DNA of 64,000 bases from Kineococcus endophyticus (GTDB lineage Bacteria > Actinomycetota > Actinomycetes > Actinomycetales > Kineococcaceae). The DNA is taken from NCBI RefSeq assembly GCF_040796495.1, contig NZ_JBFNQN010000006.1, positions 62,001-126,000 of the forward strand, read 5' to 3'. Positions 12,817 to 22,691 of the stretch are shown here, piece after piece. Below the pieces are notes generated by a model that was given only the letters and a program-made list of their open reading frames with translations, was not told the DNA's origin and did no database searches. Numbering within the stretch: position 1 is the stretch's first letter; the number at the start of each line of letters is the position of its first letter. A program made the translations under genes and the position numbers.

Positions 12817-12886
12817 TGACCGGCCGCTGTGGACCGGCGGGCGGGGGTGTGGCGCTGCGGCGGCACAGTGGACGCCGTGGGGCCGG

Positions 12887-12984
12887 TAGACTCGTCGGGT
12901 TCCCCTCCTCGTCGTGGCACGTCCACGGGCGCGGGCGGGGGGCAGACACGCACCGAGACCCTCCTGCCACGGAAAGACCGTGGC
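12887..12984 (+). promoter_or_regulatory. rpsF operon promoter and 5' leader hairpin
   Basis: A good -10 hexamer, TAGACT, lies at 12887-12892; the -35 is not clear. The leader holds a perfect hairpin, GCCACGG-AAAGA-CCGTGGC (12966-12984), about 16 nt before the AAGGAGG ribosome site. In many bacteria the S6:S18 complex binds a hairpin in the rpsF leader to repress translation. This stem-loop is in the right place for that, but I cannot show it matches the known S6:S18 motif. Confidence 0.5.
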
Positions 12985-13009
12985 CGCCTGAGACCGAAGG
13001 AGGTGGGGA

Positions 13010-13306
13010 ATGAGCGCGCGTCAGTACGAGCTCATGGTGATCCTCGACGCGGAGCTGGAAGAGCGGACCGTCGGTCCCTCGCTCGACCGCTTCCTCAACG
13101 TGGTTCGCCAGGGTGGTGGCGAGGTCGGCAAGGTCGACATCTGGGGCCGCCGCCGGCTCTCCTACGACATCAAGAAGAAGTCCGAGGGCATCTACGCCGT
13201 CGTCGAGCTCACCACCGAGCCCGCCGTCGCGCAGGAGCTCGACCGTCAGCTGAACCTCAACGAGAGCGTTCTGCGGACCAAGCTGCTGCGAGCCGAGGCT
13301 GCCTGA
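13010..13306 (+). CDS. rpsF: Small-subunit ribosomal protein bS6
   Basis: 98 residues with the standard S6 sequence: [18 protein letters not shown] at the start, then [20 protein letters not shown]. It binds S18 and 16S rRNA in the small-subunit platform. ATG at 13010 follows AAGGAGG. Its TGA overlaps the ssb ATG (TGATG), so ssb is translationally coupled. Confidence 0.98.
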
Positions 13307-13881
13307 TGGCGGGTGAAACCGTCATCACGCTGATCGGGAACCTCACGAACGACCCCGAACTGCGCTTCACCCCCTCCGGTGCGGCGGTGGCCAACTTCAC
13401 GGTCGCCTCCACGCCCCGCTCCTTCGACCGTCAGTCGAACGAGTGGAAGGACGGCGAGACGCTGTTCATGCGCTGCGCGATCTGGCGGGAGGCGGCGGAG
13501 AACGTCGCCGAGTCGCTGACGCGGGGCACGCGGGTCGTGGTGACCGGTCGGCTGCAGTCGCGCACCTTCGACACGAAGGAAGGCGAGAAGCGCACCGTCA
13601 TCGAGATGCAGGTCGACGAGGTCGGCCCCTCGCTCCGCTACGCCACGGCGAAGGTCAACAAGACCTCGCGCGGTGGTTCCGGCGGCGGCGGTGGTTTCGG
13701 TGGCGGCGGCGGGTTCTCCGGCGGCGGCAACGGCGGCGGTGGCGGCGGCGGTTGGGGTGGGAACTCCGGCGGCGGCGCACCGCAGCAGCAGGACGACCCC
13801 TGGGCCACCGGCCCGTCCGGCGGGAGCCAGGGCGGCGGCGGCGGTTGGGGCGGCGCGTCGAACGACGACCCGCCCTTCTGA
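13306..13881 (+). CDS. ssb: Single-stranded DNA-binding protein
   Basis: 191 residues. The OB fold covers about 1-112 ([39 protein letters not shown]). A Gly-rich linker of about 60 residues with Gly-Gly-Gly runs follows, then the acidic protein-interaction tip NDDPPF. It coats single-stranded DNA and recruits replication and repair enzymes through that tip. The start overlaps the rpsF stop. The reverse strand of the Gly-rich linker gives a spurious Pro-rich open frame. Confidence 0.97.
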
Positions 13882-17167: not shown

Positions 17168-18493
17168 TCAGGAACGGCCGACCGCTCCCGTGACCATCCA
17201 CGCGTCGCGACGTTCTCGCCGCACCAGCGTCACGAGCCGCGCGAGGGTGTAGAGACCGGCGAACGCGATCCACAACCACACCAGTCCCCACCGTCCCGAC
17301 GGCGCGAGCCAGAGCACCGCGAGGGCGGCGGGCGCGTAGCAGAGCAGCGTCACGACGCCGGCCCCGGCGAGGTAGCGCCCGTCGCCCGCGCCGATGAGGA
17401 CGCCGTCGAGGACGAACACCCACCCGGCCGCCGGCAGGCAGACGGCGAGGACGACGAGCGCGGCCACGAGGAACTCCCGCACCTCGCCCTCGGGGGCGAA
17501 GAACCCGGCGAGCACGGGACTGGTGAGACCGACGAGGAGTCCCAGGCCGACGCCCACCGCGACGCCCCACTGGACCATCCGCCGGATCGTCGACCGCACT
17601 CCCGCGACGTCACCCGCTCCCAGTGACCGGCCCACGAGCGCCTGAGCCGCGATGGCGAGCGCGTCGAGAGCGAGGGCCGTCGTGGTCCACACGGTGATCG
17701 CGACCTGGTGCGCGGCGATGCCGGCGTCCCCCTGGGCGGCCGCGACGAAGGTCGTCAGCAGGGCGGCGACGCGCAGGGTGACGGTCCGGACGAGGAGCGG
17801 GACGCCGTCGCGGGCGTTGCGCAGGACCCCGAGCGGGTGGGGGCGGACCCTGGCCCCGGTGCGCAGGACGCCGCGCGCGACGACCACGGCCAGCGCGACG
17901 GCCATGAGCAGCTGCGTCGTGGCCGTCCCGACGGCCGAGCCGGCGATGCCCCAGCCGACGCCGTGGACGAGCAGCAGGTTGAGGCCGGCGTTGAGGACGG
18001 CGCCCGCGGCGGCCACGACGAGGGGGGTGCGGGTGTCCTGCAGCCCACGCAGCACCCCGGTGGCCGCGAGCACGACGAGCATCCCCGGCAGTCCGGGCAG
18101 GCTCCAGTGCAGGTAGGTCAGCGCGTAGGGCCGTGCCTGCTCGCTGACGCCGAGGAGGTCCACCACCGGACCGGATCCCAGCCGCAGCGCCACCGCGACG
18201 ACGACACCGAGCCCGAGGGCGAGCCAGAGGCCGTCCACGCCCTGGGCGAGTGCGCCCCGCAGGTCGCCCGCGCCGAGCCGCCGCGCGACGGCCGCGGTCG
18301 TCCCGTAGGCGAGGAAGACGAAGACGCTGACCGCGGTGGCCAGCACCGCCCCGGCGATGCCGAGACCGGCCAGCGGCAGGGTGCCCAACCGGGCGACGAT
18401 GGCGGAGTCGGCGAGCAGGAAGAGCGGTTCGGCGACCAGTGCACCCAACGCGGGGACGGCCAAACGGAGGATCTCGGCATCACGCTCCGTCAC
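17168..18493 (-). CDS. MATE-family efflux transporter, DinF-like
   Basis: 441 residues with 12 hydrophobic segments in two related halves. EILRLAVPALGALVAEPLFLLADSA in helix 1 and GVLRGLQDTRTPL and LDALAIAAQALVGRSLG in later helices are typical of the DinF branch of MATE exporters. It likely exports cationic drugs or metabolites using a Na+ or proton gradient. GTG at 18493 has an AGAGGG ribosome site. It is divergent from dnaB, across the DnaA-box-like cluster. Confidence 0.88.
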   Translation of the reverse strand: MTERDAEILRLAVPALGALVAEPLFLLADSAIVARLGTLPLAGLGIAGAVLATAVSVFVFLAYGTTAAVARRLGAGDLRGALAQGVDGLWLALGLGVVVAVALRLGSGPVVDLLGVSEQARPYALTYLHWSLPGLPGMLVVLAATGVLRGLQDTRTPLVVAAAGAVLNAGLNLLLVHGVGWGIAGSAVGTATTQLLMAVALAVVVARGVLRTGARVRPHPLGVLRNARDGVPLLVRTVTLRVAALLTTFVAAAQGDAGIAAHQVAITVWTTTALALDALAIAAQALVGRSLGAGDVAGVRSTIRRMVQWGVAVGVGLGLLVGLTSPVLAGFFAPEGEVREFLVAALVVLAVCLPAAGWVFVLDGVLIGAGDGRYLAGAGVVTLLCYAPAALAVLWLAPSGRWGLVWLWIAFAGLYTLARLVTLVRRERRDAWMVTGAVGRS

Positions 18494-18565
18494 CTTGAGC
18501 CCTCTTGACAGAGCGTTACCGAACCGCAACCGAAGCCACTTCCCCTCGTCCGGACGAACGAACTC

Positions 18566-18728
18566 GTCTCCACACCTGGTGGACAACCTGTGGGCAGCAT
18601 CGTCGCAGGTCAACGCCATCGAGACCCGGGACGACCCGGGAAGTCACCACGTTGTCCCCAGCGTTGTCCACCCCCTGTGCACAACGGTCCCTACCCCGTC
18701 CACAGCCTGTCCACCGCCCTGTGCACAG
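18566..18728. promoter_or_regulatory. Cluster of DnaA-box-like 9-mers upstream of dnaB
   Basis: In this 163-bp stretch I count about nine 9-mers within one or two changes of the actinobacterial DnaA box TTGTCCACA. They are GTCTCCACA 18566, TTGTCCACC 18578 (minus), TTGTCCCCA 18652, TTGTCCACC 18664, TTGTGCACA 18676 (minus), CCGTCCACA 18696, CTGTCCACC 18707 and CTGTGCACA 18720 (minus), plus weaker ones. It lies in the 367-bp gene-free region between the MATE gene and dnaB. DnaA control of dnaB or an origin-associated site is inferred; no dnaA, dnaN or rpmH is in the window. Confidence 0.6.
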
Positions 18729-18860: not shown

Positions 18861-21800
18861 GTGACCACGTACGACGAGCCCCCGGTCGACTTCGGACCTC
18901 CCCCGGAGGACGACGGACCCCGGGGTGGCCGCGGTCGCGGTGGTCGTGACGGAGGACGGGACAGCGGGCGCGGGCGGGAGTCGCGCGGCGAGTCCTTCGA
19001 CCGGATGCCGCCGCAGGACATCGCCGCCGAACAGGGCGTGCTCGGCGGGATGATGCTGTCCAAGGACGCCATCGCCGACGTCGTCGAGGTCATCAAGAGC
19101 CAGGACTTCTACCGCCCGGCCCACGAGCTCATCTACGACGCGATCCTCGACCTGTACTCCCGCGGTGAGCCGGCCGACCCCGTCACCGTCTCGGCCGAGC
19201 TGACGAACAAGGGCGAGCTGACCCGCGTCGGCGGGACGCCGTACCTGCACGACCTCATCTCGACCGTCCCCACGGCCGCCAACGCCGCCTTCTACGCCCG
19301 GATCGTCGCCGAGCGCGCCGTCCTGCGCCGCCTCGTCGAGGCCGGCACCCGCATCGTGCAGATGGGGTACGGCTCGGACGGCATGGACGTCGAGGCCGTC
19401 GTCAACAGCGCGCAGGCCGAGATGTACGCCGTCACCGAGAAGCGGACCAAGGAGGACTACGCGGTCCTCGGGGACGTCATCGAGGGCACCATCGACGAGA
19501 TCGAGGCGAGCTCGCACCGCGGCGAGGGGATGGTCGGGGTGCCGACCGGCTTCGCCGACCTCGACAACCTCACCAACGGCCTGCACCCCGGGCAGATGAT
19601 CGTCATCGCGGCGAGGCCGGCGGTGGGCAAGGCCCTGGCTCTCGACACGCCGCTGCCGACGCCGACGGGCTGGACGACGATGGGCGAGGTCGCCGTCGGC
19701 GACGAGCTCCTCGGCGCGGACGGTCGTCCCACGACCGTCGTGGCCGCGACGGACGTCATGGTCGACCGCCCCTGCTACGAGGTGCACTTCTCCGACGGCA
19801 GCGTGATCGTCGCGGACGAGCAGCACCAGTGGCTGACGACGACTCGCGCCTCCAGGAGGTCTGCAGCGAAGACTCCCGGCTCGGTGCGAACGACCGGAGA
19901 GATCGCGGCGAGCCTCCGGGTGACGAGCGCCGATCACCGGCTCAACCACGCCGTGCCCCTCACGGCTCCGCTCGCTCTGGCCGAACGCGAGCTCCTCATC
20001 CCTCCCTACGTCCTCGGGGCGTGGTTGGGTGACGGACACAGCGCCTCGGCGCGCGTCACCACAGCGGACCCGGAACTCGTCGTGCACCTCGAGGCCGAGG
20101 GTCTCGAGGTCAAACCGCTCGGGAACCTCTCGTACTCCCTGTGCCTCCCCAAGAACGTCGTTGAGGCGCGCGCGTGCGTCGTGTGCGGAGGCGAGTTCGT
20201 TCCGCGCACCTCCCAGGTGAAGACCTGCGGTCGGAGCTGCGGGGGCAGAGCGAAGCTCGTGGGAGGCCGGAGCGTTCAGCCCAGCTGCCCCTCGTGCGGG
20301 CGTCGGTCGAGCGGCTTCGCGCTGTGCGCTGCGTGTCGTGCTGGGACCGGAACGTTGCAGGCACGGCTGAGGACCATCGGTGTCCTCGGGGACAAGAACG
20401 TTCCCACCGAGTACTTGCGGGCTTCCGAGGCTCAGCGGCGTGCCCTCCTGGCGGGGCTGCTCGACACGGACGGCACCGTTGCGCCCTCGGGCGTCGTGCA
20501 GTTCGCGGTGACGTCACGGCGTCTCGCGTGCGGGTTCCGGGAGCTCGTGCACAGTCTCGGGTACCGGTCCGGATGGAGCGAGAAGCCGGTCAGGGGCAGG
20601 TCGAAGGAGAGCTCGATCTCCTACACCGTCACCTTCAGCACCGACGACGATGTCTTTCGGCTGGAACGCAAACGGTTGGTGCACAAGGACCGCCGCGTGC
20701 GCACCTTCCACCGTCGGGACACTCGGTTCATCACCGACGTGCGGTCTGTGCCCTCCGTTCCCGTGCGTTGCGTGGAGGTCTCCAACGAGGAGCACTTGTA
20801 CCTCGCGGGTCGGACGATGATCCCGACCCACAACTCGACGCTGGGACTGGACATCGCCCGAGCCGCCTCGATCAAGCACGGCCTCGCGTCCGTCATCTTC
20901 TCGCTGGAGATGGGGCGCAACGAGATCGCGATGCGCCTGCTGTCCGCCGAAGCCCGTGTCCCGCTGCAGAAGATGCGCAAGGGGAGCATGGACGACGCGG
21001 ACTGGACGCGGTTCGCCCGCACGATGGGTTCCATCAACGAGGCACCGCTCTACATCGACGACTCCCCGAACATGTCGCTCATGGAGATCCGGTCGAAGTG
21101 CCGGCGCCTGAAGCAGCGGGCGGACCTGAAACTGGTCATCGTCGACTACCTGCAGCTCATGACGTCCGGCAAGCGCGTCGAATCGCGCCAGCAGGAGGTC
21201 TCGGAGTTCTCCCGTGCCCTGAAGCTCCTCGCGAAGGAGATCGAGGTCCCGGTCATCGCGTTGTCGCAGCTGAACCGTGGTCCCGAGCAGCGCACCGACA
21301 AGCGGCCGATGGTCTCGGACCTTCGCGAATCGGGTTGCCTGACGGCGGACACCCGGGTCCTGCGCGCCGACACCGGCGCGGAGACGACGATGGAGGAGTT
21401 GTTCGCCCTCCAGGCGCGCGACGTCCCCGTGTGGGCGCTCGACGAGTCGCTGCGCTACGTGCGGCGGCACCTCACCCACGTCTTCCCCACCGGCGTGAAG
21501 CCGGTGTTCCGGCTGCGCACGGCGTCCGGCAAGGAGGTGCGGGCGACGGCGAACCACCCGTTCCTCACGTACGACGGGTGGAAGCCGCTGGGGGAGCTCG
21601 CCATGGGTGATTCCCTCGCCGTACCTCGTCACGTGCCGGCACCCGAGCGACTCGCGGCCTGGGACGACGCTCGGGTGGTGCTGCTCGCGAGACTCCTCGG
21701 GGGCGGCCGGGTGTCGGCCCACCGGCCGGTGAGCTACCGCGGAGGCCGTCAAGGTGGGGTCGCGGCCGTCACCGCGGCTGCCGCCACGATGGGGCTGAGT

Positions 21801-22691
21801 GTCCGAGCGCACGGCGCGGGTTTGGTGCTCAGCGCCGAGCCGGGTGCACAGCACCCGGTCCGTGAGTTCTTCGACGAGCTGGGACTGCAGGGGACCGCTG
21901 TGCCGCGAGGCCTCCCCGCAGAGGTGTTCCACCTGCCCAAGTCGCTGATCGCCCTCTTCCTGGCCCACCTGTCGGCGGAATTCGGCACCGTGGACGTCGG
22001 GTCGGGCGTTCGGTTGACCCATCCCGGGCGGCGGCTCTTGGACGACGTCGCGCTGCTCCTCCTGCGCTTCGGGATCTCCGCCGTCGTGCGTCGGGGAACG
22101 GGGCGCGGTGGGTTCCCGCACGGCTGGACGCTCGACGTGGCCGGTCGCGACGACGTTCGCCGGTTCCTGCAGGAGATCGGCATCGACGGTCGCCTCGCCG
22201 CCGAATCGGCGCAGACGCTCGCCGCCGTCGTCGATCGTCGCGAGCAGTTGGACGCGCCGGTGCGGCTGGCCGACGAGTTGTGGGCTGCCGTGACGGCGAG
22301 CAGCGCCCAGGCGGCTGCCGCGGCGCCCGACGGGGGATCTCTGGCGACGGTCGTGGACGTCCTCGACCGTGTCGACCTCGACGTCCACGCCGTCAACGAC
22401 GTGCTGTGGGACGAGATCGTCGCCATCGAACCCGACGGCGAGGAACAGGTCTACGACGCCACCGTCGTCGGTGGCCACAACTTCGTCGCCAACGGCATCG
22501 CCGTCCACAACTCGATCGAGCAGGACGCCGACATGGTCATCCTGCTGCACCGCGAGGACATGTACGAGAAGGAGTCCCCGCGCGCGGGGGAGGCGGACTT
22601 CATCGTCGCCAAGCACCGCAACGGCCCCACGGACACGATCACCGTCGCGTTCCAGGGGCACTACTCGCGGTTCGTCGACATGGCGACCTGA
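18861..22691 (+). CDS. dnaB: Replicative DNA helicase DnaB with two inteins
   Basis: The 1276-residue precursor would splice to a 483-residue hexameric helicase that unwinds the replication fork. Extein parts are residues 1-257, 659-825 and 1218-1276. The N-domain has [20 protein letters not shown]. The Walker [13 protein letters not shown] is split by intein 1 between Lys257 and Ser659. [10 protein letters not shown] is Walker B, and [11 protein letters not shown] is followed by intein 2. GTG at 18861 follows GAGGGAAGAGG; an upstream GTG is possible. Helicase function depends on both inteins splicing. The 3' end overlaps the convergent methyltransferase by 31 bp. Confidence 0.96.
19632..20834 (+). 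other. Intein 1 in DnaB: class 3-type, with homing endonuclease and Cys-rich insert
   Basis: 401 residues (258-658 of the precursor) inserted in the Walker A loop. The first residue is Ala ([14 protein letters not shown]), so the usual Cys1/Ser1 is absent. The WCT triad of class 3 inteins is present: Trp324 in EQHQW (block B), Cys637 in VRCVEV (block F) and Thr656 in PTHN (block G), followed by Asn658 and extein Ser. The LAGLIDADG motifs VLGAWLGDG (Asp391) and [10 protein letters not shown] (Asp537) look intact. Between them lie eight cysteines in two zinc-ribbon-like sets (439/442/456/460 and 476/479/489/492). Base use looks less GC-rich than the extein. Confidence 0.92.
21336..22511 (+). 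other. Intein 2 in DnaB: class 1, degenerate endonuclease
   Basis: 392 residues (826-1217) inserted after SDLRESG, the site used by the Synechocystis and Rhodothermus DnaB inteins. It has Cys826 at the start ([14 protein letters not shown]), block B TANHP (His899), and the C-terminal [10 protein letters not shown] followed by Ser. The splicing domain looks complete. The endonuclease region retains helices like LAGLIDADG ([26 protein letters not shown]), but the first motif has Gly where the catalytic Asp belongs, so DNA cleavage is probably lost. Confidence 0.9.

Follow-up and report, generated by a model that had tools for sequence, protein, structure and literature searches.

In this study, a stretch of 64,000 nucleotides from Kineococcus endophyticus (contig NZ_JBFNQN010000006.1, positions 62,001 to 126,000) was analyzed; the whole stretch is called the window, and all positions refer to it. 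The replicative helicase gene dnaB was located at 18861–22691 on the forward strand and was interrupted by two inteins. Its translation was a 1276-residue open frame followed by a stop codon, with a predicted GTG start, and it matched TIGR00665 (E 4.2e-156), PF03796, and PF00772. The five parts of the precursor followed one another on the same strand. The N-extein, residues 1–257 (18861–19631), ended in the Walker A sequence RPAVGK, and intein 1, with 401 residues (19632–20834), occupied the P-loop, or site b. The middle extein, residues 659–825 (20835–21335), ended in SDLRESG and was followed by intein 2, with 392 residues (21336–22511), in the H4 DNA-binding loop, or site a. The C-extein had 59 residues (22512–22688). 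The initial annotation had placed the two inteins at residues 257/258 and 825/826, and the translation gave exactly these junctions, reading RPAVGK / ALALDT...IPTHN / STLGLD for intein 1 and SDLRESG / CLTADT...AVHN / SIEQDAD for intein 2. The inteins made up 62.1% of the precursor and the joined exteins 483 residues, in agreement with the 62% and the 483 residues given in that annotation.

Classes of the two inteins and their proposed splicing

Both inserts aligned to solved DnaB inteins. Intein 1 matched the class 3 DnaB inteins 6rix, 6riy, and 6bs8 with E values of 1.8e-44 to 8.2e-42. Intein 2 matched the class 1 DnaB inteins 4o1r (E 2.5e-28) and 1mi8 (E 3.4e-26), as well as the Pfam and NCBIfam intein models. 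These matches were far beyond chance. The nucleophile at position 1 was absent from intein 1, and the class 3 WCT triplet was present as W67 (block B), C380 (block F), and T399 (block G); further motifs were D62-H65-W67 in block B, T399-H400-N401 in block G, and Ser+1. The comparison set consisted of 95 distinct P-loop inteins (90 full-length and five mini-inteins); it was biased to close relatives, and the class 1 intein of genome G012 and the misparsed locus L152 were left out. Ala1, Cys380 (codon 20769–20771, the putative class 3 nucleophile), and T399 were found in all 95. The class 1 features of intein 2 were C1, T71-A-N-H74 (block B TxxH), a block F Asp, H391-N392, and Ser+1, and C1, T71, H74, D374, H391, and N392 were without variation in 20 site a inteins. 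The AlphaFold models had a mean predicted local distance difference test (pLDDT) score of 87.3 for intein 1 and 81.2 for intein 2, and their top PDB fold matches were PI-SceI (1ef0, E 3.6e-16) and TliVMA, respectively; both models resembled solved inteins bearing LAGLIDADG endonucleases. The motifs and the structure matches thus supported the two mechanistic classes originally proposed.

For intein 2, Cys1 would attack the bond after SDLRESG, Ser+1 would accept the N-terminal part, and Asn392 would cyclise, leaving the H4 loop closed. In intein 1, which has no nucleophile at position 1, the bond that follows the Walker A lysine would be attacked by the block F Cys380; Ser+1, which is the P-loop serine, would then take over, and the cyclisation of Asn401 would restore GKST. 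Normal ATP binding by DnaB would be expected only after this restoration. A search with PF03796 in the 5.04 Mb assembly (46 contigs, completeness 100) gave four matches, three of which were parts of this dnaB. The fourth appeared RadA-like by reading of its sequence, and a second DnaB was not found by this search. Because a single DnaB was found, both inteins should splice; as far as the sequence tells, this agrees with the original claim that two splicing reactions are needed. The sites, class motifs, endonuclease residues, conservation, and single dnaB are read directly from the sequence, and splicing, DNA cutting, and a redox or zinc response are what we infer from it.

We are highly confident that dnaB is one chromosomal gene whose 1276-residue precursor needs two splicing reactions, and that its inteins are homing elements at different stages. 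Some points weigh against this. The Pfam intein model reported intein 2 and not intein 1. D62, H65, and W67 were part of the search pattern, so that their conservation in the named set described below was partly built in. In addition, the putative cutting activity of the apparently intact endonuclease of intein 1 was read from its motifs and fold. If one insert no longer spliced, the helicase would be a broken pseudogene, and the only feature found in favor of this was that intein 2 has a degenerate endonuclease. The splicing residues were intact in both inteins and the frame was open. Moreover, the exteins matched those of two Kineococcus genomes, G006 and G008, at 434 of the 436 compared residues each (two differences), and only this one DnaB was found in the genome. 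A pseudogene is therefore very improbable.

The neighboring features included an open reading frame with a single-strand binding protein domain (12829–13881, forward strand; PF00436, E 2.5e-31) and a MATE-family transporter (17168–18619, reverse strand; PF01554, E 1.6e-39), and four further open reading frames upstream of dnaB had no match in the Pfam scan.

Endonuclease domains of the two inteins

The LAGLIDADG homing endonuclease domain of intein 1 extended approximately over 19959–20687, as indicated by motifs and fold match, and the alignment placed its two LAGLIDADG motifs at 20007–20036 and 20445–20474. Both motifs had their catalytic acids; D134 was found in 89 and D280 in all of the 90 full-length relatives. 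The mean identity of this endonuclease among the four full Kineococcus copies was 75–79%. With such a domain, intein 1 may still invade empty P-loop sites.

Between the two motifs lay an insert with eight cysteines (intein 1 residues 182–235; 20175–20336), a probable double zinc ribbon. Its pattern, CX2C-X13-CX3C-X15-CX2C-X9-CX2C, forms two pairs of cysteine knuckles and was found in 86 of the 90 full-length relatives, 81 of them with identical spacing. It was missing from L128 and L183, from G011, in which the insert is deleted, and from G064, which has lost the first half. Neither four phage class 3 inteins nor one chromosomal terminase-like intein had the pattern. The double zinc ribbon profile DZR_2 matched weakly, with 20 bits where its curated cut-off is 27, and the insert also resembled part of phrog_1271, a family of phage HNH endonucleases (E 1.9e-4). 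Judged from its cysteine pattern, the insert probably binds zinc. A role in DNA recognition is suggested by analogy with the accessory domains of the inteins PhoVMA and TliVMA, which modulate DNA recognition (PMC8966425). The Tli accessory domain is helix-turn-helix-like and joins the endonuclease and the splicing domain, whereas the insert of intein 1 is cysteine-rich and lies between the LAGLIDADG motifs. No description of the eight-cysteine insert was found in the titles and abstract starts returned by searches of an open paper library, and none of the titles returned there for Kineococcus and inteins concerned DnaB. In the available parts, PMC5050341 did not mention zinc, and both mentions in PMC8966425 concerned engineered nucleases.

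A viral or phage source of intein 1 was considered and rejected. The scan of viral contigs gave one locus, matching only residues 178–206, a part of the cysteine-rich insert. All 472 matching phage records were less than 60% identical, and the 30 listed were at most 44% identical. A 405-residue frame in another genome (G432:C1:874622-874849) matched mainly the insert region, residues 163–239 (E 5.9e-5), and is possibly a free relative of the cysteine-rich module. Relatives of intein 1 were also seen in other proteins. Another P-loop ATPase, read as HerA-like, had a class 3-type intein at loci L100 (G080) and L097 (G008); the former was in one frame, with a similar cysteine-rich insert and a further large insert, and the latter was split over two frames. 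A 1724-residue frame read as VirB4-like (L098, G035) had two class 3-like inteins, one of them in the P-loop. Furthermore, three proteins read as PhoH-like (L101, L102, and L103, in G028, G053, and G044) had LAGLIDADG inteins related to intein 1.

The endonuclease region of intein 2 (approximately 21651–22370) was degenerate. Gly123 (21702–21704) replaced the first catalytic Asp, which was present in seven congeners, and Phe216 (21981–21983) replaced the second, which was present in six of the seven (Gly in G004). This endonuclease looks dead, and the element would persist because its splicing works. The pair of a dead and an intact endonuclease resembles the dead PhoVMA and the active TliVMA (7qst, 7qss, and 7qsu; PMC8966425). 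The splicing domain of intein 2 had a mean identity of 90.5% to the seven congeners, which were 88–91% identical among themselves, while its endonuclease region had a mean amino acid identity of 40% compared with their mutual 77–83%. Accordingly, splicing appears to be under selection and cutting does not.

The endonuclease region might have decayed neutrally after the split from G006, the nearest relative having it, with no exchange of parts. The loss of both catalytic Asp residues favors such a decay, as do the mean codon-position differences to the seven congeners, which were nearly flat in this region (0.44/0.40/0.51) compared with 0.06/0.05/0.31 in the splicing domain. However, the nucleotide identity to G006 fell from about 0.94 over residues 1–84 to about 0.54 over residues 85–348 and was about 0.94 again thereafter. 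The fourfold-site differences from G006 were just 0.176 in the exteins and 0.25 in the splicing domain of the intein. The 0.43 and 0.41 found at first and second codon positions of the endonuclease region are therefore more than decay without constraint should have produced after the split. These values are better explained by an endonuclease core acquired through exchange, or by a long-dead core whose flanks were homogenised. This reading has points against it: the fourfold differences may have been held down by strong codon bias, and alignment error in the gapped region would exaggerate the divergence. Moreover, no donor of the core was found: the other genomes among 396 of the order were at most 50% identical, and there was no plasmid match. 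The approximately unbiased (AU) test of the core region gave p 0.136 for G006 as sister and p 0.629 for an origin within Kineococcus and thus rejected neither. Neutral decay since the G006 split is possible, but we consider it somewhat doubtful. In the core-region tree, the window copy was not placed and had a branch length of 4.24 changes per column; for this reason, no origin of the core is claimed. As for a phage source of intein 2, nine records matched, none of them covering 80%, and this source was rejected.

Inteins in Kineococcus and the occurrence of the double arrangement

All 11 Kineococcus genomes had at least one DnaB intein; both sites were occupied in four, only the P-loop in three, and only the H4 site in four. 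The P-loop intein was full-length in G000, G003, G005, and G009 and a mini-intein of 140–153 residues in G001, G006, and G008. The mini-intein of G006 was accompanied by a full-length H4 intein, and the H4 site of G008 was empty. G000, G001, G005, G006, and G008 formed a group in both the extein tree (support 95, quick method) and the tree of the intein 1 splicing domain (96/90). The two trees were largely concordant, and descent from a common ancestor is therefore favored. Within this group, the extein tree paired the window with G006 (93), while in the intein 1 tree the three Kineococcus mini-inteins grouped with one another (93/97, not starred) and not with the window, for which G005 was the nearest row. 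This difference would be consistent with some exchange, without being proof of it. A single clade of all five mini P-loop inteins was rejected (AU p 0.014).

The near sample comprised the 99 genomes nearest to the window genome, itself included, of which 94 had a readable DnaB; G021, G026, G049, G061, and G077 gave weak DnaB matches only and were not counted. Both sites were occupied in 11 of the 94, the P-loop only in 12, the H4 site only in nine, and neither in 62. The combination of class 3 and class 1 was found in 10 of the 11 doubly occupied DnaBs. The remaining one, G012 (L077; 1098–2363 and 2865–4145, forward strand), had class 1-type inteins at both sites. Its P-loop intein began with Cys, ended in HN, was without the LAGLIDADG Asp, and was 38% identical to the H4-site intein of the window; in this genome, an intein of the H4-site family may have relocated to the P-loop. 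Co-occupancy exceeded the expectation of independence (Fisher p 0.0009 on 11/12/9/62, uncorrected for relatedness), and no conclusion is drawn from it.

In a second, named collection, the class 3 alignment matched at least 593 stretches, of which 563 were confirmed and the best 80 kept. Seventy-eight of these were parsed (L112 and L141 were not), and L137 was unreadable at the H4 site. Among the remaining 77 class 3 DnaBs from the best 80 of 563, 13 had an H4-site intein. They belonged to Kineococcus, Kineosporia, Ornithinimicrobium, Nocardia (three), Geodermatophilus (two), Cellulomonas, Kibdelosporangium, Georgenia, Modestobacter, and one Actinomycetes metagenome-assembled genome (MAG). Four loci of the named set duplicated genomes of the near sample, and G009 and G003, two Kineococcus genomes, had intein 1 sequences identical to those of the loci named K. 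rubinsiae and K. vitellinus. In a wider sample of the phylum, which was not used for counts, 27 of 296 genomes had any match to intein 1.

The arrangement was described experimentally in 2018 for Mycobacterium smegmatis, whose DnaB has the class 3 intein DnaBi1 in the P-loop (site b) and the class 1 intein DnaBi2 in motif H4 (site a) (PMC6195587). The headline arrangement is thus already known, and the claim of the initial annotation that both are known DnaB insertion sites was correct. Its description of such a pair as uncommon was overstated in view of this precedent, of the 10 pairs in 94 readable DnaBs of the nearest genomes, and of the H4-site inteins in 13 of the 77 named class 3 DnaBs. 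The Kineococcus of the window is a new host, in which the endonuclease states are reversed. In M. smegmatis, the endonuclease domain is found in DnaBi2, and DnaBi1 is a mini-intein; in the window, the endonuclease that looks intact, with its eight-cysteine insert, is that of intein 1, and that of intein 2 is dead-looking. The same reversal was seen in G033, with a P-loop intein of 413 residues having both Asp residues and a degenerate H4 intein of 323 residues. Intein 1 also has its class 3 splicing domain in common with the DnaB inteins of M. leprae and M. chimaera (PMC8557812, PMC7664689; 6rix and 6riy). It was different from the M. leprae DnaBi, which is a mini-intein, and from the solved M. 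chimaera construct of about 145 residues. Intein 2 shares its class 1 splicing domain with the DnaB inteins of Synechocystis, Nostoc, and M. tuberculosis (1mi8 and 4o1r), the last of which is at the same site as DnaBi2 (PMC6195587). Compared with these, its endonuclease region lacked both catalytic Asp residues and was strongly diverged.

Cys48 and possible conditional splicing

Cys48 of intein 1 (codon 19773–19775) is the counterpart of the redox-switch cysteine of M. smegmatis (PMC6195587), and both class 3 inteins have this residue together with the block F Cys. It was Cys in 94 of the 95 P-loop inteins (89 of 90 full-length and five of five mini-inteins), the exception being Thr in G068, and the search patterns behind the named set did not contain it. 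The cysteines at positions 171 and 300 of intein 1, in comparison, were Cys in just three and four of the 90 full-length inteins. Outside the family, the position varied: two of the four phage inteins and the terminase-like intein had Cys, and the other two phage inteins had Ser and Thr. Cys48 was termed non-conserved and its importance intriguing in PMC6195587, and the conservation found here bears on the puzzle stated there. C-48 was also noted in M. leprae (PMC8557812). In M. smegmatis DnaBi1, a disulfide between Cys48 and the block F Cys blocks splicing, and the catalytic Cys is a binding site for zinc (PMC6195587, PMC7360933). Since Cys48 and Cys380 correspond to this disulfide pair, the splicing of intein 1 is probably redox- and zinc-sensitive by analogy.

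The class 3 intein might even be kept as a stress switch of the host, with the Cys48–Cys380 disulfide, or zinc on Cys380, pausing splicing and hence replication. The conservation of Cys48 relative to the other two cysteines and the behavior of the same pair in M. smegmatis are in favor of this. However, every reported replacement of Cys48 in M. smegmatis abolished splicing (PMC6195587), and copies whose endonuclease is intact had Cys48 just as often; this residue may therefore simply serve splicing. Furthermore, the class 3 intein was absent from four of the 11 Kineococcus genomes. Retention as a host switch is thus rather unlikely.

A wider proposal is put forward only tentatively, and we would not expect it to hold in full. 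The actinomycete P-loop DnaB inteins would be a distinct homing endonuclease family with a double zinc ribbon module for DNA recognition, the switch of Cys48 and the block F Cys would be ancestral and independent of endonuclease loss, and endonuclease cores would be exchanged as modules. If this is true, stress-sensitive splicing would characterize a parasite that is still mobile and would not be an adaptation following domestication, and the divergent dead core of intein 2, between halves common to a near relative, would reflect the exchange of cores as modules. M. smegmatis does not allow intein class, site, stress response, and endonuclease status to be told apart, as its responsive intein is also the one that lacks an endonuclease. 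In Kineococcus, these properties are found in other combinations: G006 and G008, with almost the same exteins as the window, have a class 3 intein without an endonuclease and, as class 1 partner, a full-length intein or none, and the window has a class 3 intein with an endonuclease and a class 1 partner whose endonuclease looks dead. This makes it testable whether conditional splicing arose after endonuclease loss or is inherent to the class 3 intein.

The mycobacterial DnaB-b inteins studied in PMC5050341 are stated there to be without endonucleases, and several Mycobacterium loci among the best 80 of 563 in the named set had full-length P-loop inteins of 403–417 residues. A 417-residue DnaB intein of the mycobacterial-locus type (e.g., L134) was also found at L143, on contig CAMCWJ010000145.1, which is titled a Bifidobacterium breve MAG and is perhaps a wrongly binned contig.

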